The notes under the pieces: model-generated
What the model saw: only the letters and a program-made list of their open reading frames with translations
What the model was told of the DNA's origin: nothing
Databases searched by the model: none
Program-made: the position numbers and the translations under genes
Part shown: positions 15,921 to 38,610 of the stretch, one piece after another
Layout of the letters: every line of letters starts with the position of its first letter
How positions within the stretch are numbered: position 1 is the first letter of the stretch
Assembly: GCA_014871385.1 (NCBI GenBank)
Contig: CM026425.1
Coordinates: forward strand, 4,800,496-4,864,495
Length of the DNA: 64,000 nt
Direction of reading: 5' to 3'
From: Ceratodon purpureus
Lineage: Eukaryota > Streptophyta > Bryopsida > Pseudoditrichales > Ditrichaceae

Positions 15921-15930
15921 CTCTTTGCAG
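15921..15930. repeat. Target site duplication of MULE2 (left)
   Basis: CTCTTTGCAG precedes the left end GGGACGTAGC and recurs after the right end ...CTTTCCC at 33423-33432. It is ten bases, or nine if one terminal C is assigned to the element. Confidence 0.85.
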
Positions 15931-16009
15931 GGGACGTAGCTTGTACGTGAGCGGAGAGCGCAGAGCGAAGAGCGGTGAGCGCAGATTTGGAGAGCGGAGA
16001 GCACAGAAT
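15931..16009 (+). repeat. Left terminal inverted repeat of MULE2
   Basis: It matches the reverse complement of 33354-33422 apart from a short gap and a few substitutions. It contains iterated GAGCGGAGAGCG-like words, plausible protein-binding repeats. Confidence 0.85.
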
Positions 16010-16871
16010 GGGGGACAGAACCTTAAAATAGCAATTTTTTACTAAAAATAAATTATAAAATTAGAAGATTCGAATATTCCTAGTATATATTTGGAAAGTT
16101 TATAATTTTAGTAATTTTATTGACCCTATAACCGTGGATTAATTACAGTGTTTCCATTGAATTTGTAGTTCGTTTTCTCTTTTCTTGGTGATTAATTTTT
16201 TGACGTGCACCAATTACTATGCTCCAGCTCCTTCTAACTAGTTCTGGCATACATTAATTCCCCTTATCTCATCAAATTTATATGCAAATTACTACTTAAA
16301 ATGTATTGGTATTGAATCTCTTAAGAGGAATGAAGTAACATTTAATAACCTAACATTTTCTTAACATTGCTAGAATTGATCCGCCATAGTCTACATGCCT
16401 TACAACTTTTTTATTTCTTTTATTTTTTATATTAACTTCCATTATTCTATCTATCTTGTTAAAGGGGTCAAAAGAGTCCTTTCCTTTAATTCTCTTTCAT
16501 TTTAATTTCTGTTTCATTTTCTCAATTGCCTTCATATTTTTTTAAACCTTAATATTTATTTTTCCTTTTGTTTACTTTTATTTTTCTAATTTCATTTTTT
16601 ATATTTTTTATATATATTTTTTTTTTTTTGCTTTTATAATTTCATTTTTTTTTTTTTTTTTTTGAATTTTTAATGCTAAATGACTTCTGCTCAACCCTCA
16701 GCCTTTTCCATTCATTTTAGGACGACGACAACTTTCAAATGAATGAAAAGCCGATTTTCAAGGGCGCCAAGCATCTCCTTCACGGATATTTAAGTTAGGA
16801 TTATGGAATGTCTCTTCCTCTTTTCTGTTGGTGTTTTGTGAAGCTCTTTTCCGTACTGCGGAGCAGCAGTT
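16010..16871. other. AT-rich subterminal region of MULE2, no gene
   Basis: The sequence is AT-rich with T runs near 16610-16665. The only structured feature seen is the block GACCCTATAACCGTGG at 16122-16137, shared inverted with the other end. It probably includes the promoter of the small gene at 16872. Confidence 0.5.
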
Positions 16872-17324
16872 ATGGAAGACGTTAGAGAAATTGTTGTATC
16901 ACTTGCTGACGATGTTTGTCCATTTCAACCATATGTTGAGGTGGAGGACGAAGAAGAGGTGATGGCCAACAGCCAAGGGCGTCCTTTGACAACGGATGTT
17001 GACGTACAACCGGATGTAAGAACTGACCCTCCACGTCCAGAAAATTCGGATGATATCAGAGTGAGGGAGGAGGACGCAGATGTGCCTTTGCAACCTCATG
17101 CATACTCGAAGGTTGGAAAGATCCCAAGGGGAACCTATTCCAGGGAATCAGTGAATCGGAGGCGGGAAGGTGGGCCATTGCTGAAACGTTCATACCAAAG
17201 ACACTTGCCAAGTGTGGGAACGAAGGTGAACGCAAATGTAGTTTGTCCTGCAGTACAGTCAGAGGTTCGCAGCCCTGCCGATAGTGTAGTGGGCAACCCT
17301 AAACGTGTTAGGTTCGAAGATTAG
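16872..17324 (+). CDS. Small acidic protein of MULE2, unknown function
   Basis: A single-exon frame of 150 codons from ATG to TAG. The N-terminal third is strongly acidic (EVEDEEEV). The C-terminal half is basic and ends PKRVRFED, with a possible nuclear signal (KR-rich around residues 90-110). Its stop is about 250 bp from the convergent stop of the MULE2 transposase. I recognise no family. Its place near the terminal repeat of an otherwise intact element and its uninterrupted frame make a real accessory gene plausible. Confidence 0.45.
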   Translation: MEDVREIVVSLADDVCPFQPYVEVEDEEEVMANSQGRPLTTDVDVQPDVRTDPPRPENSDDIRVREEDADVPLQPHAYSKVGKIPRGTYSRESVNRRREGGPLLKRSYQRHLPSVGTKVNANVVCPAVQSEVRSPADSVVGNPKRVRFED

Positions 17325-17578
17325 GACATCTAATAACAAGTATATGTTTGCTGTAATAAAGGGTACATGTCAGAGGATACGAGGTATATAGTGCACTTCT
17401 TCAAGATAGCATGTATTGAAATAGAGTGCAATCGATGAGAACGACAAAGCCTTTAATATAATGAAGAAGTCAATACAGCTTCTGAATAGCTGACTTAGTA
17501 CATGGTATATTACTAAAATCATTCACTACGTGACAAATGGCCATTGTGGAAATGGCAGTTCTAAAGTAGGAGGGCTAC

Positions 17579-20500
17579 CTACTTCTTCGCCAAGGGGTGA
17601 CGCAAGATTCCACTCTCTAGGAGTAGCTTGACCTCGTTGAAGCTAAAGGTAGGCGCATGGATGAAAAGCTCGGCTTCGGGATCACGGTTGCAGACCTTCA
17701 AGAGTATGTAGTAAAGGTGCTTACAATACGTGAACTGAGTCCTGCCTCGGAATGTAGTCATCGTCTTCTTGAATGCTGGGCAAGTGCAACCAGGGTAAGA
17801 ACTGATGGTAATCTGGTACCGTGTGATGTGTGGAGCGACGCCCGAATCCAGCCCAATGATGCAACCGTGGCCCGGCTCAGGTATCATGGTGACGGAACGG
17901 AGGCGCGCTTTAAGAGACTCAGAGGAGCCCATGGAGAGTCGCTGCGCCGGATTGGGACGAGTGGCAGTACGCTTGACCATCTTGCCGTCTCTCTTGCCTG
18001 GGTAGCGGTCAGCGTCTGCAGGGACTGGCACCGAGCTGAGATTTGCAGGAGGCGGGCCAGAGGAGAAGAGGCGTCTTGGAGAGACCGGCTTTTTGGGCGG
18101 AAGTTGAAAGCCTGCTGCTTCGAGGGCAAGAATCTCAGTGAGTTTTAGGTTAGTACCTAGTTTCACTGGCCAGACCTCTGGAATGGAGGGGAATTCCCGG
18201 TCCTTTGAGTAGTGTGCTACCCACTTGCGCTTAGAGCCTTTCACGCAGCGCTCAATATCGTCGGAGCAGAAGAAGAACTCTGTCTTCTCCACTGTGTTCC
18301 GGCGATAGTTAGTCCAAAGCCCAGTGTAGGTCGGGGCAGCTGTGCAAAGGGGCCCCCTGACGATTCTCTCAGTGCACTTCTTCTTCGTTTCAGCTCTTTG
18401 GGCCCAGCAGCACTTTGCAGAAAGTTTGTGAAGTCTTGAGATGTGCCACTCCTTCACGTCGACCTTGGTTTCTTCAACCGCGTTGACATGGCGAATGCCG
18501 CCCTTGTTCACAGGTGAAGGTAAAGGGGAATCATCTTCCTGGGCAGGAGGTTGGGTACATTGGACCTCGGTGTCGTGTTCGGAGTCGTCTTCGACAATGA
18601 CGGGCATCTGCATAAGGCGAGCCCTGACGGCACGTCTTGGGCCTCGTGGGCGTGAGAAGTTTGTCTTGTCCGGGCGATGAGACTCCTCGTCAGCTCCGAT
18701 GGGGACGTCGGATTTTCGCTTCTGTGAACCGAAGACTTCCGCTCCAGGCATGATAGGCTGACGGGTGCAGAACTCATCCGCGCCTGGCATATCGAGCATG
18801 GGCTTATCGAGCACTGTAGGATTTCCCCATTTCTTCGCGTTGCGTTCAGCCATCCGGAGCCTGAGTTCCTTCTTGGATGGTCCTGTTCCGCCGACGTCAC
18901 CTTTGAGGAACTGGTAGTAGTTGACAACCTGTAGAAATGCCCGAACGAAATCGTCCACGGTAGCAACGTAGAGGTCGTTCCCGTTGTTTCCAGAAGCTTG
19001 GAGCCACTTGTTGTGAACTGTTTCGGCGAGGTTACAGGTGGGCATCTCTGTGAGTTCTTCTTTCGTGAATTTCTGCAGATTTGACAGTAGGTGCCGTTAG
19101 ATTCACGGATTACAGTTTTGTAGGTTAGGGCTAGGAAATGAGTATGAAATAAATCAAAATAGAGTGCAGAGATCTTACGTCGGTCATGAATCCCCCCCAC
19201 TGGCGGAAGCGGTGGTGCCAGAATGACAGCCACTGATCGAGTTTGATGAGCCCGCTCTCGCCAACAACCCCGGTGGATGCCCACCATGCTCGCAACGCGT
19301 GGTACAGAGTTTCCGCCTCTGCCATGCTGGTCGCATTCTTGTACTGAGTGCACATCTTCTTGTGCTGTTCCCAGAGTTCTTCGGGGAAGTCCTTCTGCGT
19401 ATACGCCACCATGTTCTGAGTCCAGTGGAACAAGCACGACCTCTCCCGGTCCTCCATTGGGTCCTCCTTGTTGCCATTGCCGTAAAGGATTCGCACTGCA
19501 TTCCAATTCGCCTGTGCGTTATCCGCCATGAACCCCTTGAAGTTCGGCGCTGCAACGCCATTGATCTCCATGACCAGGTTAAGGTTTTTCCAGAAGACGA
19601 GCTGGGCGTCCGTGTCCTCGGACTGCATGTCGCAAGTGGCGATTGTCATCACGCGGCAGTAGGTGGCGTCGTACACATGGCACGCCATCGTCGACCAGTC
19701 TTTGACGCGTTTGACATGGTCGAACATGATCCATGCGTTCTCCAAGTCGCCACCAGCTTGCATTCGGCTGACCAAGTCGACGCCACTTCCCGGGCCGACC
19801 TCCGACATCTTGAAGAGAAAGACTTTGTCACGCATAGATCCCTGACCAGGAAACCTATTCTCCTGGACATACGCCCAAAGACTGTTACCACGGAGCTTGG
19901 TGATACCGTCCATGATTCCGTACCTTTTGAATTTTTTGAAGGTGGCGACTTTGTTGCGGATGTTTGGTGACGCCATGTCTTTGCATCGATCCAGAACAGG
20001 AACCAGCTCCTCCATCGTCAGCTTCCTCGGTGGTGCATCCTCGGGCTGTAGAAGGTAGCTTCCGATGAGGAGTTTGCTCGCCTCCAAGACAACGGCGCTC
20101 TTCGTTGCTTTGTTGTTCATGTCTACCTGCTCTTCTATTAAAGTACTGATTTCTGCTTTAGAGTCTCTGTAGTCTCCAACTTTCACTGGATGATCATGTG
20201 TTCCTATGTGAATACAAGCTCTAGTCTGATTTGCTTTGCCCACTACGTAATAAATCTTAGCCTCGCATGTGGCTACACATGATGGAGGTTCTTTACATAC
20301 CTTGCACACCAGCGTGGATTCAGATGGAGGAGGCTGATCCATGAGAAAAGCTTGCAGGGTACACCCATCGAACTCAGTCTCGTTAACATCGAAGATCTTG
20401 GGAACACGCTTCAGAAAGTCACACTCCTCGTTGGTGCAGCGCAGCCATCCGACGTAGGTGGAACTACGAAAAGAGAGTCCGAAGTCGTTTTTGATGTTTG

Positions 20501-21260
20501 TTGTGATGGTCTTGGTCCACAAGTGTCCGTCGTATCGTTTGTCCATTCCCTGCATTGACTTGGCGGCGACCTTAGAGGAACCTGCAGCAACCGGGGGCAA
20601 CTCAAATATAACCGGACCATCAAACTTCGCAGGCAAGTACTCAACTCTCTCGTGTCTGATAGTGGAATAGTCTATCTTCTTCAAAATGTTTTTGGACCCA
20701 CGCGTCTTAGCAATCTCTTTAAGGAGCGGAACAATGCTAACTATGACTGAGGACAATGGAGGAGAGACATTGGAAGGAGGAGCATCTGCGTCGACCTTAG
20801 GCACCAACTTGACGGGACTGACTTCGTCATCAGAGGAGAGAGAAATGACTGTTGGAGGAGGAGGTTTCTCTACGTCTGAAGTTTCAGTACCAGGCTCGAC
20901 TTTGACCTTGACATCACGAGGTAAGGGAGTCTGAATTGTGCAAGTAGAAGAGCGACGGGGGGTGAGGATCTCAGTGGATGCAGCCATCAGAGAATCAGTA
21001 AGACCATAGACTCTATAGGATCCAGGAAGGAGTCTCCACTGCAGCATATTGTTTTCATCTCTCACTGAAGGTTGCCCGAGGGTGTGGGTAACCTCGGCAG
21101 TAACGTCATCAAAGATCTCCTCCTCTATACTGATGGTATCTTCACGGAAGTGGAATCTGAGACTCAGGTGAAGAGAGGAGACTGTAGCTAGACCATCGTC
21201 ATCTACGCGAAACCTAAGAGGGATGCCCATGCCTTGGGCGTACAGACAGACCATCCCCAT
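17579..21260 (-). CDS. MULE2 transposase, DDE with CxxH and SWIM zinc finger
   Basis: Two exons, 21260-19179 (694 codons) and 19072-17579, are joined in phase across a 106-bp intron (GTAAGA...TGCAG), giving 1191 aa without interruption. The N-terminal 230 residues are low in motifs and contain a Ser/Asp-rich stretch (ISLSSDDE). A C-x2-C-type cluster around residues 290-350 resembles FLYWCH/WRKY-like zinc-binding DNA domains of Mutator transposases. The core shows VYDATY (about residue 530), MADNAQANWN (about 580), CLFHW (about 607) and NLAETVHNKW (about 709). A SWIM finger CTCPAFKK...CKHLYY sits near residue 1120. The motifs match the MULE order Asp-Asp-CxxH-Glu-SWIM. It differs strongly from the MULE1 transposase, so the two elements belong to separate lineages. 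It is probably active or recently active. Confidence 0.85.
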
Positions 21261-21865
21261 GTTCGCAGGGAACTCAGTGATACTAGTGAAAGATGGGAGG
21301 AGAGTGAGAGAACTAGCGAAGCAGTATCGCGATTACAAAGCGAGAGGAATGATATGTCGCTGTTGATCATTTTATTTAGGTTGGAACGCCCAGTGAACAG
21401 TTAGAGAATGATTCATTCTGTTAGGTAACGAATGTAAGATTTAAGAGAGACGGCGCCAACTAATTACAATGCCACTTTTTGCAGGTCTAAGTATATCAGG
21501 TCAAGAATTTTAGAACTGTACTTTAACAATTTGAATCGTGAAGCAGATTCTATTTGTCATGATGTATTATAAGATTAGAATGAGCCGTCATTTAAATTCT
21601 ACAATTATAACAATTAATATAAAAAGAAGCATGCATTGAAATGCTTGAATCAGATCTTTTAGATTATTGTATTCTTGGATTTATTCTTTATATTTAAAGG
21701 TTCAAATTATTAACTTTACTTCCATTAAATGAAAGAGGGTAGAGAATGTGTCAGTTTTTAAATTTGTAAATCAAATTAGGGTTCTACGTGATAGGTATTT
21801 AAGGTGGGAGGAAAGTATGAAGAGAGTCTTTTTTTTGTGAGAGAGTCCTTCCTGGGGTTAGACAC
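21261..21865. promoter_or_regulatory. Divergent intergenic region between the MULE2 transposase and the rightward genes
   Basis: About 600 bp of AT-rich sequence separate the transposase start (21260, leftward) and the small ORF start (21866, rightward). It probably drives both. No specific motif could be identified with confidence. Confidence 0.35.
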
Positions 21866-22087
21866 ATGAAGGAGAGTGGAGGGCTATCCTCCACTTATGT
21901 TACTCCTAAACAGAGAAGGAAACCTGGCCGCACTGACTTTACAAATAGACGAGCTAGAAAGAGGAGAGCATTACGTAAGAAGGTAGATTTTGATGTTGAC
22001 CATTTGAGTGCACCCGTAAAAAGGAGAGGAGGGGGGCTGCCTGTAGCATTGAAGTTTTCTAGCCTTCGTAAACTCATTCTAGACTGA
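21866..22087 (+). CDS. Small very basic ORF of MULE2, unknown
   Basis: A frame of 73 codons from ATG, with a run RRARKRRALRKK typical of a nuclear or nucleic-acid-binding signal. It ends just before another open stretch in a different frame (22099-22320) that ends at a good donor (AAG|GTAAGT). It could be the 5' exon region of the downstream ParB/methyltransferase-like gene or an independent small gene. No splice joining the two frames with a normal-length intron was found. Confidence 0.3.
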   Translation: MKESGGLSSTYVTPKQRRKPGRTDFTNRRARKRRALRKKVDFDVDHLSAPVKRRGGGLPVALKFSSLRKLILD

Positions 22088-22098
22088 GAGACTCTATA

Positions 22099-22320
22099 GT
22101 GGAGGAGAAGGATGAGTTTTTAGAGAACACCGACGTCGAGATTCACAAGCAGGAACAAGAGGTTCTCTTAAGTGGAGGTGCACGTGAGGCCATGACGGAA
22201 GAATTAGTCTTTAATTGTAGTCAAAAAGTAGGCTCACCGCAACCTTCAATAGGATTAAATGAAATCTCAACAACGGAGCCGGATTCTCAATCAGATCTGT
22301 ATTTGAACTCCGATAAGGTA
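22099..22320 (+). other. Possible 5' exon of the ParB/methyltransferase-like gene
   Basis: An open frame rich in Glu/Ser ends '..YLNSDK' at a consensus donor AAG|GTAAGT in phase 0. The next recognisable exon at 27018 also begins in phase 0 after AATTAAG. If the two are joined, the intron is about 4.7 kb and contains the whole satellite array. This is inference from phase and donor quality only. Confidence 0.3.
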
Positions 22321-22449
22321 AGTATTACTAAACCGTCTAGGACCACGGTATTATGATTTATATGTTTTAGTGCAGTATATCTTAAAGAAGCGATATTTAT
22401 TATTGTATTTGTGAAACGTTATTGTAAATTTTGATTCATGACTGTGAGG

Positions 22450-22583
22450 TTCGATCTCAGACTTAGTGAGACGGGCCGAGGCACATGACTCAGGCACATC
22501 ACTCGTGACTCATGGATTCGATCTCAGACTTAGTGAGACGGGCCGCGGCACATGACTCAGGCACAGGACTCATAACACATGGA
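22450..22583. repeat. Two-copy tandem repeat, about 67 bp
   Basis: The unit 'ttcgatctcagacttagtga...gacgggccg.ggcacatgactcaggcac' occurs at 22450 and again at 22517 with few differences. Confidence 0.7.
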
Positions 22584-22960
22584 TTCAATTCCTTGCTATT
22601 AATATACAGAGCAGCATGTGGATGGGAGGAATCGAAGATCAACCAGGAGGAGCTGCTGCTGGAGACCTCGAGCATCTTCGACTCGAGGCGCGGAGAGTGA
22701 GGCAGGGCATCTTTGAGGCAGGAGAGGGAGGAAGTACCATGGCTGCGCACCGAGGTGAAGATTTGGGAGACCGCGGCCTTGGGGAAGGCGGCGACGATGT
22801 TCCAGTTGCAGGACTTGCTCCCGTCGATGTAGGAGTCGACAATGTGGGTGGTGAAGCAGCGGTTGGCAGAGTCGATGGGCTGAGGGTTGGAGGCGAGAGC
22901 GATGACGCCGAGAGGTCAGAAGGGTCGGACCACCTTGAGGACGACGACGACGACCACCAG
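22500..22960 (-). pseudogene. Possible captured host-gene fragment (minus strand)
   Basis: On the minus strand from about 22915 down to 22499, one frame is continuously open with strong C at third positions, reading VIALASNPQPIDSANRC and then TTHIVDSYIDGSKSCNWN. This codon bias differs sharply from the surrounding AT-rich element. An in-frame stop lies just upstream and no start is seen. Mutator-like elements often carry transduplicated host fragments (Pack-MULEs); this looks like one, but the donor gene is not recognised. The plus strand of the same stretch is also open (22616-22981, ending at a GTAAGC donor), so orientation is not certain. Confidence 0.35.
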
Positions 22961-23298
22961 GTAAGCCTGCACCTACATTGAACTTGTTGTTTGTTGGGTA
23001 CTTCTTGGGTGGTTGCGGATTGTTAAAGAATGTTGGTGATTGCGTGCTGCTGGAGTGCTAGCTACTCGAGTGCTTGCTGCTTGCTGGTCGATTGAATGAG
23101 TGCTTGCTGGTCGCTTGGAGTGCTTGGTGCTTGGTGTGCTTGGTCGATTACATGAGTGCTTGGTGCTCGGTGCATGCTGCTCGGTGCCTTCGCGAATGCT
23201 TGTGGAAAGTTACTTTGCTGGTAGGGGCTCGTACGATTGCTTGTATCCGTGAGCTTGCTGCTTCAGTACTTGCTGCTTCACTTACATGCGGCTCTGCT

Positions 23299-26200
23299 GG
23301 GAGGGTGCTGGTCCGTTTCGGATTTTTATATTTTTTTTTTCTTTTTTTTGTTCTTTGAGTTATTGATAAATAAGAAACGAATTAAATCTAAAAGATTTGA
23401 TAAATATGTGTTCTTTGTTGATGATGGAATACGTATTTGAATGTTTTTTTTTTAATTTTGGAAAAATAAAAAACCCGCCCACCTACTGTCGTCGAGGACA
23501 GTAGGCCAGGAGGGTGCTGGTCCGTTTCGGATTTTTGTAATTTTTTTAATTTTTTTTTGTTCTTTGAGTTATTGATTAATTAGAAACGAATTAAATCTAA
23601 AAGATTTGATAAATATGTGTTCTTTGTTGATGATGGTTTACGTATTTGAATGTTTTTTTTTTTAATTTTGAAAAAATAAAAAACCCGCCCACCTACTGTC
23701 GTCAACGACAGTAGGCCGGGAGGGTGCTGGTCCGTTTCGGATTTTTGTATTTGTTTTAATTTTTTTTTTGTTCTTTGAGTTATTTATTAATTAGAAACAA
23801 ATTAAATATAAAAGACTTGATAAGTATATGTTCTTTGTTGATGATGGTATACGTATTTGAATGTTTTTTTTTTTAATTTTGAAAAAATAAAAAACCCGCC
23901 CACCTACTGTCGTCAACGACAGTAGGCCGGGAGGGTGCTGGTCCGTTTCGGATTTTTGTATTTTTTTTACTTTTTTTGTTCTTTGAAATATTGATTAATT
24001 AGAAACGAATTAAATCTAAAAGATTTGATAAATATGTGTTCTTTGTTGATGATGGAATACGTATTTGAATGTTTTTTTTTTTAATTTTGAAAAAATAAAA
24101 AACCAGCCCACCTACTGTCGTCAACGACAGTAGGCCGGGAGGGTGCTGGTCCGTTTCGGATTTTTGTATTTGTTTTAATTTTTTTTTGTTCTTTGAGTTA
24201 TTTATTAATTAGAAACGAATTAAATATAAAAGATTTGATAAGTATATGTTCTTTGTTGATGATGGTATACGTATTTCAATGTTTTTTTTTTTAATTTTGA
24301 AAAAATAAAAAACCCGCCCACCTACTGTTGTCAACGACAGTAGGCCGGGAGGGTGCTGGTCCGTTTCGGATTTTTGTATTTTTTTTTTTTTTTTTTTGTT
24401 CTTTGATTAATTTATTAATTAGAAACGAATTAAATCTAAATGATTTGATAAATATGTGTTCTTTGTTGATGATGGACTACGTATTTGAATGTTTTTTTTT
24501 TTAATTTTGAAAAAATAAAAAACCCGCCCACCTACTGTCGTCAACGACAGTAGGCCGGGAAGGTGCTGGTCCGTTTCGGATTTTTGTATTTTTTTTATTT
24601 TTTTTTTGTTCTTTGAGTTATTTATTAATTAGAAACGAATTAAATCTAAAAGATTTGATAAATATGTGTTCTTTGTTGATGATGGAATACGTATTTGAAT
24701 GTTTTTTTTTTTAATTTTGGAAAAATAAAAAACCCGCCCACCTACTGTCGTCGAGGACAGTAGGCCTGGAGGGTGCTGGTCTGTTTCGGATTTTTGTAAT
24801 TTTTTTAATTTTTTTTTGTTCTTTGAGTTATTTATTAATTAGAAACGAATTAAATCTAAAAGATTTGATAAATATGTGTTCTTTGTTGATGATGGTTTAC
24901 GTATTTGAATGTTTTTTTTTTTAATTTTGAAAAAATAAAAAACCCGCCCACCTACTGTCGTCAACGACAGTAGGCCGGGAGGGTGCTGGTCCGTTTCGGA
25001 TTTTTGTATTTGTTTTAATTTTTTTTTGTTCTTTGAGTTATTTATTAATTAGAAACGAATTAAATATAAAAGATTTGATAAGTATATGTTCTTTGTTGAT
25101 GATGGTATACGTATTTCAATGTTTTTTTTTTTAATTTTGAAAAAATAAAAAACCCGCCCACCTACTGTCGTCAACGACAGTAGGCCAGGAGGAAGCTGGT
25201 CCGTTTCGGATTTTTGTATTTTTTTTACTATTTTTGTTCTTTGAGTTATTGATTAATTAGAAACGAATTAAATCTAAAAGATTTGATAAATATGTGTTCT
25301 TTGTTGATGATGGAATACGTATTTGAATGTTTTTTTTTTTAATTTTGAAAAAATAAAAAACCAGCCCACCTACTGTCGTCAACGACAGTAGGCCGGGAGG
25401 GTGCTGGTCCGTTTCGGATTTTTGTATTTGTTTTAATTTTTTTTTTGTTCTTTGAGTTATTTATTAATTAGAAACGAATTAAATATAAAAGATTTGATAA
25501 GTATATGTTCTTTGTTGATGATGGTATACGTATTTCAATGTTTTTTTTTTTAATTTTGAAAAAATAAAAAACCCGCCCACCTACTGTCGTCAACGACAGT
25601 AGGCCGGGAGGGTGCTGGTCCGTTTCGGATTTTTGTATTTTTTTAATTTTTTTTTTGTTCTTTGATTAATTTATTAATTAGAAACGAATTAAATCTAAAT
25701 GATTTGATAAATATGTGTTCTTTGTTGATGATGGAATACGTATTTGAATGTTTTTTTTTTTAATTTTGAAAAAATAAAAAACCCGCCCACCTACTGTCGT
25801 CAACGACAGTAGGCCGGGAGGGTGCTGGTCCGTTTCGGATTTTTGTATTTTTTTTACTTTTTTTGTTCTTTGAGTTATTTATTAATTAGAAACGAATTAA
25901 ATATAAAAGATTTGATAAGTATATGTTCTTTGTTGATGATGGTATACGTATTTCAATGTTTTTTTTTTTAATTTTGAAAAAATAAAAAACCCGCCCACCT
26001 ACTGTCGTCAACGACAGTAGGCCGGGAGGGTGCTGGTCCGTTTCGGATTTTTGTATTTTTTTTACTTTTTTTGTTCTTTGAGTTATTGATTAATTAGAAA
26101 CGAATTAAAGCTAAAAGATTTGATAAATATGTGTTCTTTGTTGATGATGGAATACGTATTTGAATGTTTTTTTTTTTAATTTTGAAAAAATAAAAAACTT

Positions 26201-26799
26201 GCCCACCTACTGTCGTCAACGACAGTAGGCCGGGAGGGTGCGGGTCCGTTTCGGATTTTTGTAATTTTTTTAATTTATTTTTTGTTCTTTGAGTTATTGA
26301 TTAATTAGAAACGAATTAAATCTAAAAGATTTGATAAATATGTGTTCTTTGTTGATGATGGAATACGTATTTGAATGTTTTTTTTTTTAATTTTGAAAAA
26401 ATAAAAAACCCGCCCACCTACTATCGTCAACGACAGTAGGCCGGGAGGGTGCTCGTCCGTTTCGGATTTTTGTAATTTTTTTAATTTTTTTTTTGTTCTT
26501 TGAGTTATTGATTAATTAGAAACGAATTAAATCTAAATGATTTGATAAATATGTGTTCTTTGTTGATGATGGTTTACGTATTTGAATGTTTTATTTTTTA
26601 ATTTTTAAAAAATAATAAACCCGCCCACCTACTGTCGTCAACGACAGTAGGCCGGGAGGGTGCTGGGCCGTTTCGGATTTTTGTATTTTTTTTACTTTTT
26701 TTGTTCTTTGAGTTATTGATTAATTAGAAACGAATTAAATCTAAAAGATTTGATGGAAATGTGTTCTTTGTTGATGATGGTATTCGTATTTGAATGTTA
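23299..26799. repeat. Satellite array: 17 units of about 210 bp with a conserved hairpin
   Basis: Units begin 'gggagggtgctggtccgttt', run through T-rich and AT-rich sequence, and end with a palindrome CCTACTGTCGT-CA-ACGACAGTAGG (11-bp stem, 2-nt loop). Palindromes occur near 23481, 23691, 23902, 24110, 24320, 24530, 24740, 24950, 25160, 25368, 25579, 25789, 25997, 26205, 26416 and 26637; the last unit lacks one. At least two unit types alternate ('aaatctaaaag..aaatatgtg' and 'aaatataaaag..aagtatatg'). A few palindromes have a GTCGAG loop (near 23481 and 24740), and units with 'aaccagccca' recur 1258 bp apart (24110 and 25368), which indicates a six-unit higher-order repeat. Confidence 0.93.
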
Positions 26800-27017
26800 A
26801 GGTTGGGGGACAATTTTGGATTTCTGATAGTTGTTCCGTTTTTTTCCTCTTTGATTTTTTGTGTTGATTGAAAGGGTTTTAATTTACGAAGTCTTAAAAA
26901 AAATCTTATAAGTCTTTATGAGTTTTAAAGGTTTTCTAGGGATCCTTCTCGAGGTTCTGGTTTGTATCTTAAAAGTTCCTGTTCTTTTTGTTACTTACAA
27001 CATTGTTTACAATTAAG

Positions 27018-30000
27018 GACTCTGATGGGGATCACATGGGGAGCGAACGTCAAGACCCTACGCCAGCAGAAACTGAGGTATTTCATTCAATCTACAATTT
27101 ATATTCCTTTTTTATGTTTATGATGTTGAGTTCTATTCGCCCTCTTCCCTTCTTTGTTTCCTACTCTTTTAATTAGGGCAGTTGATCATCTCTTCATTTC
27201 TCCTAATGTAGGTATCATCCGATGCTCCTGAGATGTCCGCTACTTCCCCCATTTCTGTCATCAATGTTTCCGATCTTTCGGATTCATTTGATCAGTACCA
27301 CTGTACCTGTGATGTAGCCAACCCTGTAGGTGTGGAAAGTGGACCTCTCCAGGTCCACTCTCCACAGTACATGCCTACCTCTCCAGTGTACATGCCTACC
27401 TCTCCAGTGTACATGCCTACATCCCCGGTGTATGAGCCTACCTCCCCGGGCTATATGCCCACTTCTCCTCCACAGGGCTCCCCGCCGATGTCTCCACCCT
27501 CTCCTTCCTCGCCGATTCGAGTCAGGAGGCCAGCCCATGTCGTCTTTGCTCTGCCGGCTATTCTACCGTGCCCAGTCCAACAGACCAGGCGATTTTGGAG
27601 GAGGCGCCGTCACTGGAACTGTAGACAGTCTAAGGAGTACTATAGTCGATCCTCACGTAGATAGTTTTATCAATCACAGATGATGATTGAGTTGTTAAAA
27701 GAGAGATGACAGTATGAAGATATATTGTTACTTTCTTTTACATACTTGTCTACTTTGCATGACTTTCTTCGATTGTGCTTGTTTTCCTAATTTGCGCACC
27801 CCCTCGCAGGTTACGCAAACACAAGATGTTTTGGTGAAACCATCTTGTCCGATAAACTTGAAGACTGCTACAGAAGGGGAATTAGAACATCAGACCTTAT
27901 ACAAGGTGGACTCCAACGCCGTCATCAACAAGCTCAGGATCAAGCCATCGCAGAAGTCCCGAATGTTGGTGCCCCTGTGTCGGATGATCCCAATGGCAAA
28001 GGTCAGACCAGTGGGCGAAGTGGGTGTGCAGCATTTGGAGCGGGAGTTCGTCAAGGGGTATAGAGATGGCGACCGCGTCATGTACATCTCCATGTACAAC
28101 AACGAAGAGCAGACGCGAGATGTTACGGATGAGGTCATGGCTAGATGGAGCCCATTATGGAGGGACGCGAATGATGCCTTCGAATTTGAGCTTCAAAGTG
28201 ACGAGGACTGGTCTCAATTCTCGGGGAAGATGTTCTTTGTCTGGGAAGGTAACCATCGCCTCTCAGCATGGCTTCGTCATATCAACAAGCATCATGCAGA
28301 CGACCCGTCTTGGCACATCTCTGTGCACTGCATAGTACTCGACCCCCGTGGCCACGTTGGCAATCTTCTTCACGCAATGCACGACATCAACTGGTAAGTA
28401 CTTGTTTCTTTTCTCCTGTTTTTCATTTGTTACTTTATCTCATCTCTTTTATTCATCATAAGTTTTTTTGGTTTATTTTCAGGTCGACTGAGAATGACCA
28501 CGTCAAGAGTAATCTCCCTGCAAAACTATTTCGAATCCGCTCTTTCGGAATGATGAAGCTGGAGGAATTCAAAGACCTCCTCAGTCCTCAAGAGTATGAC
28601 GTCTGTTTGAAGAACAAGCCACCTAATCCCTCCTGGTTTCCCTTGACAACTAAAGTTTTCATCGCATTTTTGTACCGAGTAAGTCCTACATCCTCTCTCT
28701 ATTTGCTTCTTATTATTCAATACTCATGGAATTTCCTAAGTCTGAATTCTCTTTCTACAGCGGGAACTCGCAGCGGCCTCCGATGAAGCAGCCAATGCCT
28801 ACCGCATGAAGACACCTAAGGATGAGCAGTCTGCAAGTGCAGTTTGGGATGTCATGAATGAGGCATCAGAGAGAATGGTCGAAGCCATCAAGAAGAAGGA
28901 CTTCACCAAGTACTTGGCTATTGCAAATCCCAAGAATGGTGACGACTTCCTCAATGAGGTGACTCACTGATCATTGTTCAATTCGCTGTTTCGCATGACT
29001 TCAAAAATTTCTGTATTTATCTTTCTCAAACTTCGGTAATTCTTGCAGATTAATCGCCATTTCAGTCTCAACAATAAGCCTGAGATGTCAGTGGATAAGC
29101 TTCAGAAGATTGTTCCTGCGGCCGTTGAGCCCAAATACAAGGCTCGTTGGTTGAAGTGGTGGAACTCATCCCCGAGTGCTCGAACGTCTTACAGATTTCT
29201 GCCATCTGATTTCAAAGACACCGACTTCGACCCATGGTTGAACAAAGCTTCATTCTGGGCTGGGGTAATTTTTATAAGAAATCCATTCCAATTCCTTGTT
29301 CCTTTATTTTTTTACCGTATTCCTTCTTCGTTGCTAATTATATCAATTCTGTATTACAGTTGGAGGAAGCCGTCATCCACGAAGTCGAGGACATATTCAA
29401 GACGGAGAACCTCGATATAAATTGGATGGCATTTCCTGATGTCCAACAGCCGGGCGATTATGTGGAGAGTTCACGTATTCTCTTGTGGGACAAGGCCTTC
29501 CCTACGTTCATTGGAAAATCAGCAGATAAGCCCTTCGACAAGAAGTCCATTTTTTCTAAATTTCCTGGAACCGCCCAAGTTGTCAAGCGGGTTACTTACC
29601 GGTACGATACATTCCTCTTAATCAGATTCAAATTCCAGAACGAGGTCTCTTTATCTCTTTGATACTAACCTTCTACATATTGGTTTACATAGGTACTTCA
29701 AGCGAGAGCTTGTTCTGAAGGGGGTAATCAAGGTTCAGCAGTTCCCAAGCTACTTCCTTTCTTGGACGTCCAAAACCTCGGACCAGTGTATCTATTCTCC
29801 CCAACAGTTGAAAAGGTACAAAGCTCCTCACTTGCTTGAGGGATGCTGGTATCTTGATTGCTCTCGTGGTTTCACGATTGACTCAGAGGCGGACGTCAAG
29901 ACTCTACACGATGGGGGTGAGGTTGTGGCGGAGGACTCCGTGGATGATGCAGAAGGTCGTGAAGGAGAACAGGATCAGTCTTCTGCTCCACCACCAAAGA

Positions 30001-31768
30001 GAGGGAGAGGAAGGCGACTGAAATCTCTGCGTTCTCAGTCTGAGGCATCACAGCAAACTGGTGCAGACTCTTCCGCGCCAGCTGAGAAGGCACCAGAGCC
30101 CTCTCCGGGTATGATCGTTACCAACCCTTCTCCAGCTTCTTCGCCGGCTCCTTCATCGATCAGTGCTTCGGAGATCACCAGAGGTCTCCTTCAGCAGAGG
30201 AAGGCCAAACTATATCCTCAAACAACTTCTTCCGCTGGAGCTTCGATTTCCACACATGTTTCCGTCTTCAACTCATCTGTGGATTCCCTGTTGCGGCGAA
30301 ATAGGAGACAGGAGAGAAAAGGTGGCGACCCAGATTGGATCAAGATTCAAGACTTCATTCGCAAGGTATGTTCTTCTATTTTGACATTTCATGGATTCAG
30401 CCACCTCTACTCGCTTTGTAGTTACTAACTCTCCTTTCTTGTTTCCTCCAGTTTGGAGCAGGCCGCGAAAACGAAGTTCCGGACCGGTGCAAACAAGAGG
30501 ACCATCTGGGAGTCGACTTGATCATTGCCGACATCCCTGAGAATCTTCCCGTCCCTTCCGTTTCCGTTCCCCCCACGAGTATTCCGCCTTGGAACTCTCG
30601 CTACAAGGATTATTTGTACGACATCTTCCATTTTGCAGATGAATTCCTGCAGAAAGATGGTGCCATCTGCCTCATCTACAACACTGATCAGAAGCTGGCT
30701 AAGGATATCGAGGAAGAAGCTGCTGGTGGTGGATACGTGCTGTTCAAGGACTGGTGGGGTGTCAATGTACTCGGCCTGACTTCTCCTACGAACCCCGAGA
30801 ACTTGGTACTTTTCCTGAACATGCCCTTCTCTTCGCTTACTGATAACCCTTCCGCTTCATTTTACTCACTAGTTTTGCTCGACTGCAGACTATGCGATTC
30901 TGGATTCGCGTCTACGTTCGTAGTGGCAGTACTTTCTCCTTCCAGACGAAGAAGGAAGACCTAATACATGGGCTCCTCAACATTACCGAGAGTGATGCCA
31001 TTTTCAACTTGACCGATGTGGATTCGCAGCTCATGAATGGGGAGGTGCCGTGGAGAGGCCCAAGGGAGAAATCCATCGAGATGATGCAGGGCATACTTGA
31101 GGAGCTGTCGAAGCCCGGCGACATAGTTGTTGATTGGAATGCTGGGATAGGTAACTATTCATGCATATCTTTGCTGAATTATTCTTCTCGTTTTTACCAC
31201 AGTTTCTCATTTCTTTGTATCTCTCCGAGTTTCAGGAGCCTCCATCAAGGCTGCCCAGGCTATTGGTCGCCACATTCTCGCTTTTGAGGAGGACGAAGCC
31301 ATATTCAACGCCCTTCTCAAACCATCCGCCATGGGTCCTCCTAAACATCCAAGGCCGGCAGCAGCAGGCGAAGCGCCTCCAAAGAGAGCAAGACCTGACA
31401 AGTGGTGTAAGTCTTCTATTCTTTGTTTATATTATCCAATCATTACTGCTCTTTCTAGCTCTACGGACTCTATCTAACCACAGTCGGTTCTCTATTGCAG
31501 AGTAGTTTCCGCAACACCGCCACGTGGGCCAAGAGCAGTGTCCACTCCATCGTGGCGTCTTCATTCCAGCCCGATTCAGCCTTTCATACTTCCGGACTAC
31601 GCAGAGGACTTAGCACAGGCGTTTCAATCTGGAGCCCTTACATATGTTCCTAGTCGGCCAACTACTTTTGATCCCAGGGCCCTTCTATTCGTCGATGACG
31701 AGGCGGTAGAAGGAGATTCAGAGTCATCTAGTTCTGAGAGTGGAAGTAGTGATGGTAGCATTTTCTGA
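27018..31768 (+). CDS. MULE2 cargo: CTD-like heptads + ParB-like domain + degenerate DNA methyltransferase-like domain
   Basis: Exons read by eye: 27018-27077, 27212-27520 (end uncertain; the frame is open to 27664), 27810-28393, 28483-28678, 28761-28958, 29049-29264, 29360-29601, 29693-30365, 30452-30805, 30889-31150, 31236-31406 and 31503-31768. All phases fit, about 1176 aa. Exon 2 encodes five heptads YxPTSPx (27368-27472). The 27810 exon has VPLCRMIPMAKVRPVGE and then FFVWEGNHRLSAWLRH, the pattern of ParB/Srx N-terminal domains (GNHR box). The 29693 exon is a disordered Ser/Pro linker with a KRGRGRR signal. The 30452-31406 exons show DLIIADIPEN (position of motif IV DPPY), then PGDIVVDWNAGIG..IKAAQAIGR (motif I with the downstream alpha helix of beta-class N4/N6 methyltransferases). 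DPPY is altered, so activity is doubtful. The last acceptor is ambiguous: CAGAG|TA keeps the frame, CAG|AG gives a stop. Confidence 0.6.
27368..27472 (+). repeat. Five coding heptads resembling the RNA polymerase II CTD
   Basis: Five consecutive 21-bp units encode YMPTSPV three times, then YEPTSPG and YMPTSPP. Each keeps Y1, P3, T4, S5 and P6 of the CTD consensus YSPTSPS; position 2 is Met or Glu instead of Ser. The first three units are nearly identical in DNA, which indicates recent amplification or selection. Confidence 0.85.
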
Positions 31769-32281
31769 GTTTGAAGGAGGCTTCGGTCTTTCATTGTTTT
31801 CATTTGATTTGATTTGATTTAATTGGAGTTCATTGCGTAATCCTTCCTCTACTCTACTACCCTGAATCTATACTTGTTACGATTCTCATTTCCAAATCGT
31901 CTCCTCCTATATTGAGGATGAATTGTCACAACCGTAATGCTCAAAATATAATATGAAGAATGAAATGTTACAAAAGAAATGCTCAAAATTTAAATTGCGC
32001 TGTAACTTATATTTTAACCATTCAAAATCCCACATGTCCTAACCATGTTACCTATTCTTGACTTGGTGTACATCTTGGTTTCTTCTACTCCATTATTCTA
32101 CACGAACTCTGAAATATTCCACGAACTTTGAAGACCATCTCTTTTAGTTGGTTTCGAGTTCTCTTATTCCTAGAATCATCTATATTATCTAAAACCATCA
32201 TGGTGGAATACTCGTATCTAGATCCAATGAGGGACCACATCTAAAGTAATGTATTCGAACACCCCACTAGACTTCACAGTA
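31769..32281. other. Intergenic, MULE2
   Basis: No gene is seen. Sequence at about 32060-32260 ('catcttggtttcttc', 'cgaactctgaaatattc', 'atctaaagtaatgtat') recurs in the same order and orientation, diverged, at about 32945-33160. The pair flanks the ORF at 32282-32881. Confidence 0.45.
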
Positions 32282-32881
32282 CTAATCCTTCGGAGGATAT
32301 ACAGTCCAACTCTTGTCCATATCAAACCAGCAAGTTTCGCCATCCGATATGATCACTTCGGGCAGCTCAACAAGTGGATTCTCATCGACGTTCGATAGCA
32401 AGGGATACGGGATTAGAGACAACTCCATAATACGGAGAAGCTCATTGGTACAAAGCACTGTCCAACGCCATTCACCTTCACCAACATGTAGGCTTCCGAT
32501 GTGCCTAAACGGTGGCAAGTCCATGCCTCGTTCTCTAGCGCGCTCCACCTCCAACAGCCACGGCCGCAGCTCCTCATAACTCGCCGGTGCCTTTGGGGGC
32601 AAACCTACAGCCGCTCTCGTCCTCCTGGATCTCGCATTACACACCTTCGGCATCGCGCAACACACTGAATTCTTGTAGTCTTCAAACGTTACAGTCAAGC
32701 TTGTAGATTGACATCCCCGAACTCCTACGCTACCTTCGCATACAGCACAGAATGCCAAGGACTGTGTCACTATCCTAATAGGCCACCTAGAGACAAGCTC
32801 AAGAAACCAAGAGTGACCTCCTTCTCTGGAACCCAGCTTACCAAGTGCTGTTTCATGATGAAAATCTCCTACTTGTATCAC
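32282..32881 (-). CDS. Unknown 199-aa ORF in MULE2
   Basis: The frame is open from ATG at 32881 to a stop at 32282. It contains Cys-rich spots (CAVCEGS, VCCAMPKVC) and a tail with VELPEV. The end of MULE1 gene B also finishes ..VVELPEV, a short resemblance at both protein and DNA level. No domain is recognised and no transmembrane or signal segment is evident. It may be one exon of a larger gene. Direct repeats flank it (about 32.06 and 32.95 kb). Confidence 0.35.
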   Translation of the reverse strand: MIQVGDFHHETALGKLGSREGGHSWFLELVSRWPIRIVTQSLAFCAVCEGSVGVRGCQSTSLTVTFEDYKNSVCCAMPKVCNARSRRTRAAVGLPPKAPASYEELRPWLLEVERARERGMDLPPFRHIGSLHVGEGEWRWTVLCTNELLRIMELSLIPYPLLSNVDENPLVELPEVIISDGETCWFDMDKSWTVYPPKD

Positions 32882-33353
32882 TGAAATGAAGATGCTTCGC
32901 TGCCTAGGAAGAGAGAGTAATCTTCGATGAAGACAAGGACTCTGACAAGGTATATCTTGGTTTCAGCAGTCAAGATATTATACACGAATTTTGAAATATT
33001 CTAGGAAATTTTCAAACCTTGCCTCCTTTATGTTCTGTGGTATTTGTTGTTTTCCTTGTGCATTTACATAATCCTATGAAAGAATTATTTGTTTGATCTA
33101 AAACTGAACGCCTGATCATTGTATCTTGCCTAAACCCATGACAAATCTAAAGGAATGTATGCATGACGTCATCATGACATCAGCCCTAATTTGTATCTTA
33201 GAGAACAAACGTAATAAATTCTTACCAGTGATAACCCTAATTTCCACGGTAATATACTCTTTTTCTAAAAAAAGTGTCAAAATTTAGCCTTAATTTAGTA
33301 ATTTTCCACGGTTATAGGGTCTACTTTGCTTTTGAAAATTTTCCTAATTGTCA
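32882..33353. other. AT-rich right subterminal region of MULE2
   Basis: No gene is seen. It holds the second copy of the short direct repeat (32945-33160) and the inverted block CCACGGTTATAGGGTC at 33306-33321 shared with the left end. Confidence 0.5.
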
Positions 33354-33422
33354 ATTCTGTGCTCTCCATTCTGCGCTCACCGCTCTCCGCTCTACGCTCT
33401 CCGCTCACGTACGAACTTTCCC
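33354..33422 (-). repeat. Right terminal inverted repeat of MULE2
   Basis: It is the inverted partner of 15931-16009 and ends ...ACTTTCCC next to the duplicated CTCTTTGCAG (33423-33432). Confidence 0.85.
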
Positions 33423-33432
33423 CTCTTTGCAG
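33423..33432. repeat. Target site duplication of MULE2 (right)
   Basis: CTCTTTGCAG, identical to 15921-15930. Confidence 0.85.
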
Positions 33433-34244: not shown

Positions 34245-34527
34245 AAACACAATGTCAGGACAGATACAAAGTGGAGGAGACGAAGAAGGGAAATAGAGAG
34301 AGGGTGAGAAGGAAATGCGGGCGGAAAAAAGAAAAAATCCAAAAAAAAAAAAAAAAAAGAGACGTCTGTCCGGACAGGGAAGGGGAAGACGGAACGGATG
34401 AAAGGAAATGTGGAAAGAAGTGCGAGAACTTGAAAGGGGAAGATGGAGAGAAGAAACCAGGCAACAAAACAGAAAATGCAGGAAAGGCTAAGAAACAAGG
34501 AGATAACCGAAAAGGAAAAATGGAAAA

Positions 34528-34563
<36 letters not shown>

Positions 34564-36611
34564 GTCTGTCCGGACAGGGAAGGAGAAGACGGAACAGATC
34601 AAAGGAAATGTGGAAAGAAGTGCGAGAACTTGAAAGGGGAAGATGGAGAGAAGAAACCAGGCAACAAAACAGAAAATGCAGGAAAGGCTAAGAAACAAGG
34701 AGATAACCGAAAAGGAAGAATGGAAAAATTGGAAAAAACCAAAACAAAAAAAAAAGAAAACGTCTGTCCGGACAGGGAAGGAGAAGACGGAACAGATCAA
34801 AGGAAATGTGGGAAGAAGTGCGAGAACTTGAAAGGGGAGGATGTGGAGAAGAAACCAGGCAACAAAACAGAAAATGCAGGAAAGGCTAAGAAACAAGGAG
34901 ATAACCGAAAAGGAAAAATGGGAAAATCAATAAAAAAAAAAAAAAAAAAAAAATCGTCAAATCGGACAGGGAAGGAGAAGACGGAACAGATCAAAGGAAA
35001 TGTGGAAAGAAGTGGGACAACTTGAAAGGGGAAGATGGAGAGAGGAAACTAGGCAACAAAACAGAAAAAGCAGGAAAGGCTAAGAAACAAGGAGATAACC
35101 GAAAAGGAAAAATGGGAAAATCAAAAAAAAAAAAAAAAAAAAAAAAAAATCGTCAAATCGGACAGGGAAGGAGAAGACGGAACAGATCAAAGGAAATGTG
35201 GAAAGAAGTGCGAGAACTTCAAAGGGGAAGATGGAGAGAAGAAACCAGGCAACAAAACAGAAAATGAAAAAAAGGCTAAGAGACAAGGAGATAACCGAAA
35301 AGGAAAAAAAAAAAAAAGGGGGGATGAGAATGGAAATTGAAGAGGGCAAACGGCGAAACGAACAGGACACAAGTGGGGTTCTGGAAGGGAGGAGAGGGGA
35401 CATTAAAAACTGAAGATAAGTAAGAGAAATATAAAACATTTCTGTCCGGAAAGGAAAACAGTAGAGCAGGGGGGTGGAAACTGAAAATCAATAAATGCAG
35501 CCACTTTATAGGAACAAAGGGGATAAAACAAAAACAGAAACTTGAAAAGAAAGAAAAAAACAAAAAAAAAAAGGGGGGGGGGGGGGGGGGAAGATAAAAA
35601 GCTGAAGAAGGGCAAATGACGAAGGGTGCTGGGAAAACGGACAGAGAGAAGTGAGGAACGGAGAGGGGAAGTGACAATAAGCTTCTTACAACGGTTTCAT
35701 TAAAATAAAAGGTTACACTGAAGAAACGGAAGGTGGCAATCTGTGAAGCAAAGTGGGAAACGAAAAAGAATGACTGCAGAATTCGGAAGGGGAGAAAGAA
35801 AAATGAAAAAACTAAAAAAAACGGAAACTCATGTCTGTCCGGAAACGGGAAGAGAGGATCCGGGGGATGCAAGCGGATGTCAGAGGGACGCTGGGACTTC
35901 AGAAGTGATAGAAAAGAAAGAAACAACAGAATATAGAAGAGATGTCTGTCCGAAAACGAATGTAGGAAATAAGAGAAAAGTAAATAACGAATCGGCGGAC
36001 CCAGAAAACGAAACACCAAGGACACAGGAGTGGAATGAGAGAGATACCAGTAGAAGACCTGACTTTCAGGACAGAGAGCTAGCAAAACTCAGATCATAAG
36101 AGGAGGACAGGAGTCGGTAGAGGAGAGAGGCATTCTGGACTGAGACTGATAAGCATTGCAGGAGTGAAGAGTAAGGAATACAAACTCGCCACGCAAGAGA
36201 GAGTATGGGGCAATGGTGATACCCTAAACTTTGGACAGAGTGCTAAAACCCTCAACCGCAAACCGTACAGACAGATTCCGAAGTGGACCGAAACTGAGGA
36301 AATAGAAAAAATTGCATTCAGAGAGAGGTGCAGGAAAATGTTCAGACATAAGGGAAAATAAATCAGGGCAGACAAAAACCGGATTAGGGAAACTTTCGAC
36401 CTCTAACCCTAGACAGTGAAGGTGAACTTCAGCATAGAGATAAAAAAATGAAGTGGAGAAAGAGAGTAAGGGACGACATAAGGAATGGCAAACACGAGCA
36501 GCATGAAGTGAACCCATTAACAAACATGAAACCTCTCGGGCAGACAACATCGAAGACATAAGAGAAACAAAATGCAGAGAAAAAATTCAGTGACAGTAAG
36601 CACCGACTTAC
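34245..36611. repeat. Purine-rich intron of gene B with five 193-200-bp tandem units
   Basis: This is a 2.4-kb intron between the first two exons of gene B. From 34362 to about 35330 five units start at 34362, 34562, 34760, 34953 and 35149. Each consists of a CTGTCCGGACAG-type palindrome (degraded in the last two), a GA-rich body and a poly-A tract of 10-30 bases. Further purine-rich sequence with more CTGTCCGG words (near 35443, 35838 and 35945) follows to about 36500. On the gene B transcript this is a C/U-rich intron with long U runs. Confidence 0.8.
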
Positions 36612-37284: not shown

Positions 37285-37399
37285 GACGATGGTAGGGAAG
37301 ACTAAGTTTGTGCCGCCACATTCGGGGGATCAGGAGGCGGCCCCAGTAAGGATACTACACGGAGCCAACTTACTGTATTCCGTGATCAGCAAAAGCCAA

Positions 37400-38610
37400 C
37401 AAGAGTGTGCAATGTCTGCAATGTCACTGATTGCCAGAAATGTCCAGTCAGGGTTCCCCGTCGAGCAGGCCAGATTCTACCGCCGAAGTAATAATGCCCG
37501 TTTACTGTACAGACAATTGCAGACATGCACTGCTGTTAAGGTGCGATTGATCGAAGAGTGGTGGACTTTTCACTTGAGGGCGGTCGAGTTTTCGAGCTGC
37601 TGTGCTCAGCTGGTGATGAGTAGTTTTGGTCACAACCGACAAACGTTCCGTTCCTTTGCGCGCGCGTTAATGATGGAGGCAAGCCGAGTGAAAACTGTTC
37701 TTCGCATGCATGGACTCCGGAGTAGTAAAATACAGGAAGTTCCTCAGAAGTTGTCGCCGACTGTTCACAGAAATCACGTAATAATGGAAATCGAGCATCA
37801 GGGAATCCGAGAATCTTTTACGAACCCCATCTGACGGGTTGATCCAATTCTCCCGCCCAAGTAATACTGCCCATTCACTGTAGTACAGACAAATGCAAGC
37901 AGACATGCACCGCCGTTGAGGTACAAAGATTGGTGGACTATAATGCCGATTCATGGTAGAAGAGATGAGTGCTTCAGAGGAGCAACATCGCTAGCTCACA
38001 GTCACGGCGCTATCTATTTCACAGGTACTGATAAGGTGATCACTACAGTGCTGTCTATGGAGGCGTGACCTAAAATCTCGTCACTTAGGCTCGGGGTTCT
38101 ATAGTGCCCATGTTGTGCTATCGCTCTTTTGCTGTTGGCGTGTCGTAGTTCCCAAAATGCTAGTGAGAAGGCGTCATGTGCAGATGCTCATTGCATCGCA
38201 GGGAAGAAACTCTCAGAATAACTGATCCATCAGATGCTGTGTTGCACACTATGCCAAACAGTTCAGCTTCTCGATTTTGGTAGCTCAGGGAGGCCGTCCG
38301 CCTCATCGGGTTACAGTGAGCAATCAGGGAGGACGCCGGTTGGCCATCATTGAGGTAAGGCGTGTTTACACACTCAATGTGACTCTCTAGACAACTGTAC
38401 CACATGTTGTCGGTAGAGTCGGTGTTGGTTTCGATGATGGGTGTTGTAGGTGTAGCGTTGGTGTTGTACTGTGCGTACCTAGGCTGAGATTCTCCGGAAC
38501 ATGGTTTCAGATTGAAGTATCTTCATGCGACTTCACAAAAAGGATGATGAGTTTCTTTGGTTAACGTCTTAAAGCGGCTCCCTAATCGTTTGGGGTGACG
38601 GTGTGGGGAT
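37400..38610. repeat. Right arm of the long inverted repeat flanking MULE1
   Basis: It is the inverted partner of about 6065-6850. It carries an extra segment (about 37570-37990). Within this, a block resembling 37483-37570 is repeated at 37856-37940 ('gtaatactgcccattcactg', 'gacatgcaccgccgttgagg'), so the arm has an internal duplication. An open frame at 37289-37834 (181 codons) has no recognisable domain and is not called as a gene. Confidence 0.7.

Follow-up and report, generated by a model that had tools for sequence, protein, structure and literature searches.

The Mutator-like element MULE2, which lies within the 64,000-nucleotide stretch of Ceratodon purpureus DNA analysed here (the window), appears to encode, beside its transposase, a protein in which an N-terminal ParB/sulfiredoxin (Srx)-fold domain is fused to a C-terminal beta-class amino-methyltransferase domain. 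Computational analysis of the window yields the coding frame of the fusion, both domains, the boundaries of the element, and an array of palindromes between two divergent genes (Table 1). The best explanation, in our view, is that the product is a DNA-binding protein, encoded by the element, that acts as a regulator or anti-silencer and in which the methyltransferase domain is probably non-catalytic, a reading to which we assign a probability of roughly 0.45, that is, somewhat short of even. A plant transposon with a ParB-methyltransferase fusion was not found in the literature searched, which does not by itself prove absence; the main texts of a survey of Mutator elements (PMC6446971) and of a review on how plant transposons capture genes (PMC13317346) contain neither 'methyltransferase' nor 'ParB'.

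Table 1. Features of MULE2, of the fusion gene and of the palindrome array, in window coordinates
Feature	Position	Strand	Basis or remark
Mutator-like element MULE2, 17,493 bp, contains the fusion gene	15930..33422	.	inverted repeats, duplication; ends +/-1 base
Left 9-bp target-site duplication CTCTTTGCA	15921..15929	+	
Right 9-bp target-site duplication CTCTTTGCA	33423..33431	+	
Second element, enclosing MULE2	6887-37275		arms 98 percent identical; duplication GTAAGGAAA at 6878 and 37276
Transposase-like gene made up of two long open frames, presumably separated by a short intron near 19.1 kb	17579..21260	-	frames 733 and 505 aa
Tandem array, 210-bp unit x 16.7	23299..26798	.	
16 copies of palindromic site CCTACTGTCGT-CA-ACGACAGTAGG	23482..26651	.	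12 equal to consensus, 4 with 1-2 changes
Probable exon 1	27036..27077	+	ATG 27036 and phase-0 GT donor; no confirmation from relatives
Probable exon 2, 3' end tentative	27212..27664	+	150-aa open frame
Exon 3, predicted ParB/Srx-fold domain, GNHR at 28248-28259	27810..28393	+	frame, relatives, predicted fold
Exons 4-8, middle region without recognised domain	28483..30365	+	frame, Pfam
Exons 4, 5	28483-28678, 28761-28958	+	open frame, GT-AG introns
Exons 6, 7, 8	29049-29264, 29360-29601, 29693-30365	+	open frame, GT-AG introns
Exon 9, methyltransferase domain, altered motif IV DIPE at 30530-30541	30452..30805	+	frame, Pfam, alignment
Exon 10, GPREK at motif X position (31057-31071), most of motif I DWNAGIG	30889..31150	+	frame, Pfam, alignment
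Exon 11, remainder of motif I with the stretch behind it	31236..31406	+	frame, alignment
Exon 12, acidic serine-rich tail and stop	31503..31768	+	open frame

The element and its surroundings

Mutator-like elements have target-site duplications of 9-11 bp. MULE2 is bounded by a duplication of this kind, and a search of both strands of the 64 kb finds CTCTTTGCAG only at 15921 and 33423; an 11-bp match such as that observed at the flanks of MULE2 arose in 29 of 20,000 random pairs of 32-bp stretches. Just inside CTCTTTGCAG lie the inverted repeats (15938-15985 and 33370-33417), the 48-nt arms of which match at 92 percent, with weaker matches further inward. When the flanks of MULE2 are joined, a 390-aa open frame runs across the junction, while the two remaining frames of this strand stay open for 52 and 47 aa.

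Reading by eye, we found in the transposase-like gene the motifs DATY and ADNA, which we take to be of the catalytic (DDE-like) type, and CTCPAF..YCKH, presumably a SWIM-like motif. The assignment of this gene rests on these motifs, the 9-bp duplication and the inverted repeats; no transposase family in Pfam or NCBIfam matched it. The layout of MULE2 is thus a transposase-like gene on the reverse strand, the 210-bp array, and the fusion gene on the forward strand. With respect to the second, enclosing element, a third copy of the 9-mer GTAAGGAAA is present at 61989. Comparison by blastp of MULE1 and MULE2 proteins gave no convincing homology.

Around the elements, TIR, NB-ARC, LRR, kinase and LysM/LysM_RLK domains are encoded, a complement that fits a land plant. 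Bacterial or phage contamination was considered and rejected given the introns and the TIR/NB-ARC/LRR, kinase and LysM domains nearby. It is further countered by the searches of phages, which returned no relative at 60% identity or more (the weaker records being 160 for the methyltransferase piece and 1 for exon 3), and of viral contigs, which contained neither a confirmed relative nor the exact 24-bp palindrome described below; prokaryotic genome contigs likewise held no confirmed relative.

Structure and relatives of the fusion gene

The chain of exons 3-12, built by hand from the three forward frames of positions 27018-31768, is open over 1053 codons up to its terminal stop, and all nine introns are GT-AG with matching phases. 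At the last exon the acceptor reads AGAG, and the join uses its second AG; use of the first would lead to a stop. Exon 2 encodes YMPTSPV-type heptads, similar to the CTD repeats of RNA polymerase II, and no clear phase-0 donor was found near its end, so the 5' end is tentative. An Rfam search gave no match at the gathering score.

A preliminary description of this DNA, made from its letters, had placed a gene of twelve exons with conserved phase inside a single Mutator-like element. The placement is supported by the transposase-like gene, the inverted repeats and the 9-bp duplication, and the motifs GNHR, DIPE and DWNAGIG were found where they had been read, in exons 3, 9 and 10/11 of one open frame. 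The exon count stands for exons 3-12; exons 1 and 2 are plausible and, given the missing donor of exon 2, the total of twelve is tentative.

Relatives were sought with exon-sized queries, at E <= 1 for exon 3 and E <= 0.001 for the methyltransferase piece, and numbered 65 (weakest E 6.9e-20) and 23, respectively; the whole 1053-aa query found none. Judging from the relatives of these two pieces, the coding signal of the fusion gene is in excess of chance. Some relatives show signs of decay, either in motif I or in their reading frame (P0021, P0022). The intron positions are borne out by the ends and continuations of the relatives' open reading frames (ORFs). Exactly at D[IV]NW, where the TG|GTAA donor makes a stop, 37 of the 65 exon-3 ORFs end (39 under a looser pattern). 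Among 14 ORFs compared by blastp, P0037, P0088 and P0072 continue from exon 3 into exon 4, P0011, P0012 and P0014 align from exon 8 through exon 10, and P0002, P0009 and P0020 extend into exon 11.

Could the two domains belong to two adjacent genes, one ParB-like and the other methyltransferase-like, instead of one fusion? Such an arrangement would agree with the fact that no relative showed exons 4 to 8 linked, these exons being joined by the window's own frame only. However, nine GT-AG introns of matching phase in one frame, and relatives whose ORFs span the exon 3/4, 8/9-10 and 9-10/11 junctions, make two genes extremely improbable.

The ParB/Srx-fold domain

The structure model of exon 3 (pLDDT 84.7) matches the ParB/Srx fold in Foldseek and VIA-align, where no Foldseek match reached E 0.001 and VIA-align re-aligned Foldseek's own matches only; folded alone, exon 3 gave a useless model (pLDDT 34.6). 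A sequence hint in the same direction comes from the PHROG family phrog_1033, 'ParB-like partition protein', which was matched by 7 of 32 members (best E 0.0027). Neither Pfam nor NCBIfam gave a ParB match, and a PDB profile search with the exon-3 alignment returned nothing up to E 10. The GNHR motif is kept in 60 of the 64 covering rows of that alignment and, in the model, sits between strand 142-146 and helix 148-161, in a strand-helix turn like that of the GxHR/GxRR nucleotide-site motif; we take it to be equivalent to GERR/GCHR. On the strength of the model, exon 3 is predicted to encode a ParB/Srx-fold domain that belongs to this superfamily. A helix-turn-helix of the kind used by ParB for DNA binding was not identified in the fusion protein.

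The methyltransferase domain

The Pfam family N6_N4_Mtase (PF01555) matches a 247-aa piece over almost the whole profile (E 9.2e-8, 32.7 bits, cutoff 26.7), and a scan of the 1053-aa core (exons 3-12) detected only this family (28.3 bits, cutoff 26.7) and a weak DUF6568. Among the relatives, P0011, P0009 and P0005 lack a PF01555 match and P0002 has one below the cutoff only; in PHROG, the best methyltransferase families cover 3 of 24 members. A PDB sequence search gave weak matches to DpnA (E 0.0064) and CcrM (E 0.0088), with their DPPYN opposite DIPEN; when the 24-row methyltransferase alignment was used, DpnA came up with an E value of 0.29, no better than that of an unrelated enzyme. A comparison of profiles, made against five phage methyltransferase ORFs, scored 72.6 (probability 96.6 percent) over the stretch from motif X to motif I, the maximum among 100 column shuffles being 25.9, and a global profile alignment places DIPE at DPPY with low per-column confidence. 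Alignments to DpnA, CcrM and the SfV orf48 profile show the motif order IV, X, I.

All 22 covering rows of the alignment, the window included, have D[IC]PE, and in 18 of them DIPENLPVP is identical; GPREK is present in 19 of 19 covering rows, again with the window. Motif I, which in the window starts at 31132 and is divided between exons 10 and 11, is variable, with several rows devoid of GxG and with variants such as EWNASTG, DVNADVG and DVTVVTC. The catalytic pattern [DNS]PP[YFW] occurs in none of the 23 relatives. One of the five phage comparison ORFs, L001 (E 8e-6, 81% of the query), also departs from this pattern and reads IADIPYN; hence Ile in the second position also occurs outside the family, and the family-specific change is that of Tyr to Glu. 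Given that D[IC]PE is found in every covering row, the altered motif IV is a feature of the family and catalysis is doubtful. With Glu in place of the motif IV aromatic in every covering row, the likely role of the domain is to bind DNA or SAM, not to catalyse a reaction.

The earlier proposals of a GNHR-type ParB/Srx box and of a methyltransferase-like module with motif IV ahead of motif I both find support, the former in the exon-3 model together with the phrog_1033 hint, the latter in PF01555 and the alignments to DpnA, CcrM and the phage profile. The description of the changed DPPY as a relic finds no support in view of the conservation of D[IC]PE (22 of 22 covering rows), and a relic or pseudogene was likewise rejected as the main reading, motif IV being uniform among the relatives.

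The same residues bear on the possibility of an active, self-modifying enzyme, in which the D[IC]PE site would methylate DNA (6mA, 4mC or another base) and the ParB-fold domain would guide it to the element. The near-full-length PF01555 match is compatible with such activity, as are the Asp and Pro retained at positions one and three of motif IV, the conservation of GPREK, the Ile shared with L001, and the active bacterial-type N4CMT described for bdelloid rotifers (PMC8885841). Nevertheless, the replacement of the motif IV aromatic by Glu in 22 of 22 covering rows and the variation of motif I make activity quite improbable. The conserved D[IC]PE raises a question of enzymology, namely, whether this is a dead methyltransferase or a new active site.

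A passenger gene, that is, a host or foreign gene captured in the Pack-MULE manner with no role for the element, deserves consideration inasmuch as MULEs are known to take up host genes (PMC6446971). A useless fragment would not, however, be expected to retain an open frame of 1053 aa or to occur in a family in which DIPENLPVP is so often identical, and we give this alternative little credence.

The palindrome array and a possible function

In each of the 16 units of the array that were examined there is a 24-bp palindrome, the 11-bp arms of which are perfect in 12. Arms of this length were reached by 2 of 2000 dinucleotide shuffles of the 210-bp unit and by 3 of 572 windows elsewhere; at arms of at least 10 and a spacer of at most 4, the 64 kb contain three more palindromes, two of them beyond the array and one, made of A and T only, within it. 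The array occupies the divergent intergenic region, flanked by the transposase frame, whose first Met is at 21260, and by the fusion gene, whose ATG is at 27036; by analogy it resembles a parS or a VANC-target array. Special constraint on the palindrome was considered and is unsupported: among the 164 windows of 24 columns, 39, including that of the palindrome itself, are at least as well conserved, and the site does not stand out from the remainder of the unit. As for CpG loss by methylation, the observed/expected ratio of 1.73 in the array (0.77 in the whole window) fits low methylation but could just as well reflect a young array or the unit's composition, and we draw nothing from it.

We infer that the fusion protein would bind to the palindromic repeats or to neighbouring DNA and would act on MULE2 itself by regulating the divergent promoters; alternatively, it might keep the array region free of host silencing, as VANC does on its motif arrays. 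To our knowledge, few families of transposon-encoded proteins that oppose host silencing are known. If correct, the pairing of a ParB-fold/methyltransferase protein with a palindrome array of its own would represent a separate route to anti-silencing, assembled from bacterial or phage-type parts, and the short, defined DNA site makes the idea directly testable.

A different role, as a factor of transposition or replication, would have the ParB/Srx domain work during transposition, at the ends of the element or at the array, as an NTP-regulated clamp or nickase. GNHR is conserved, and nicking-nuclease or NTPase activity has been reported for ParB domains, among them the one in a bacterial ParB-methylase fusion (PMC5512222), but the array is located 7.4 kb from the left end of MULE2 and 6.6 kb from the right, and we consider such a role rather unlikely. 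The regulator or anti-silencer that we favor also admits a wider and decidedly speculative version, of low probability, in which a nucleotide-gated ParB-fold clamp with a repurposed methyltransferase domain would load at parS-like palindromes, spread over the element and exclude host silencing. If true, this would amount to a prokaryote-style partition/modification cassette in a plant DNA transposon.

Comparison with known systems

Fusions of a ParB/Srx domain with an adenine methylase in one protein are described for phages and bacteria (PMC5512222), and the MULE2 protein would share this joining of both domains; unlike them, its gene has eukaryotic introns, a long middle region, Glu in motif IV and a transposon setting. 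A phage DNA methylase ranked third among the best 50 viral-library matches listed. With ParB-parS the likeness is that of a predicted ParB fold beside a palindrome array. DNA methyltransferase-type domains encoded by transposons, as in MULE2, are also described for DIRS retrotransposons and for the DNMT-bearing retrotransposons of dinoflagellates and charophytes (PMC2685390, PMC5890265); these, however, are retrotransposons with Dam-like or C5-type enzymes, and no ParB domain was found in the relevant parts of these accounts. The bdelloid N4CMT is a eukaryotic protein that likewise has an N6_N4_MTase-type domain; as reported, it acts at transposons and deposits 4mC, and it carries SPPY and a chromodomain (PMC8885841), whereas the MULE2 gene is an element gene with DIPE and a predicted ParB fold.

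Another close parallel to the arrangement in MULE2 is VANDAL of Arabidopsis, a MULE described as having a second gene and noncoding tandem repeats with short repeated motifs; VANC binding to its motif arrays, which are built of tandem repeats, is documented both in vivo and in vitro (PMC5735166). VANC carries DUF1985/DUF287 (PMC5735166), whereas the MULE2 protein has a predicted ParB/Srx fold and a methyltransferase domain; Pfam detects neither DUF in its 1053-aa core (exons 3-12), which by domain content sets the fusion protein outside VANC. Furthermore, VANDALs are termed non-TIR MULEs (PMC13317346), in contrast to MULE2 with its terminal inverted repeats. In both cases, a second protein encoded by a MULE stands beside tandemly arrayed motifs, and the analogy with VANC gains from the palindrome array.

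The outer element and its surroundings

The sequence GTAAGGAAA flanks MULE1, the outer Mutator-like element, as a 9-bp duplication whose two copies lie at 6878 and 37276; the 9-mer recurs in the window at 61989. MULE1 is interrupted within a minus-strand gene by MULE2, the Mutator-like element that holds the ParB/Srx-methyltransferase fusion gene; once joined, the flanks of MULE2 are open over 390 aa. Because inverted similarity persists beyond the MULE1 ends (6057-6840 versus 37369-38616, 73-78 percent), MULE1 may be housed in an older inverted arrangement. The palindrome CTGTCCGGACAG, present in the 198-bp unit of the MULE1 array, has CTGTC...GACAG in common with the palindrome of the MULE2 tandem array.

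Outside MULE1, the window contains a direct duplication of 1.1 kb (4865-5875 versus 55579-56665, 86 percent identity) and a long frame, uninterrupted by any internal stop, whose predicted product is, by its domain matches, a pogo/Tc5-like transposase.

Positions of features in the window and in phage sequence L001
Feature	Position	Strand	Remarks
LRR ORFs	959-1978		
MULE1	6887-37275		arms ~290 bp, 98 percent identical
MULE1 transposase-like ORFs	9835-11058		DUF5575_C and SWIM matches
MULE2 open frame	16842-17324	+	160 aa
MULE2 open frame	32282-32962	-	226 aa
MULE1 tandem array	34341-35308		198-bp unit, 4.9 copies
Long open frame	44678-47806		1042 aa; DDE_1, Psq and Tc5 DNA-binding domains
TIR/NB-ARC/LRR gene	50166-54099		
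Unannotated phage ORF	L001:1381-2196		similarity to methyltransferase

Coding content of MULE2

Two other MULE2 frames, neither of which had a match when compared with Pfam, are possible additional genes of this element. The probable exon 2 of the fusion gene encodes five heptads resembling those of the RNA polymerase II CTD (27358-27459; YMPTSPV three times, YEPTSPG and YMPTSPP), and the underlying DNA is a 21-bp tandem repeat.

In the phage ORF, motif IV reads IADIPYN, possibly an intermediate between DPPY of beta-class methyltransferases and DIPE of the family to which the fusion gene belongs.
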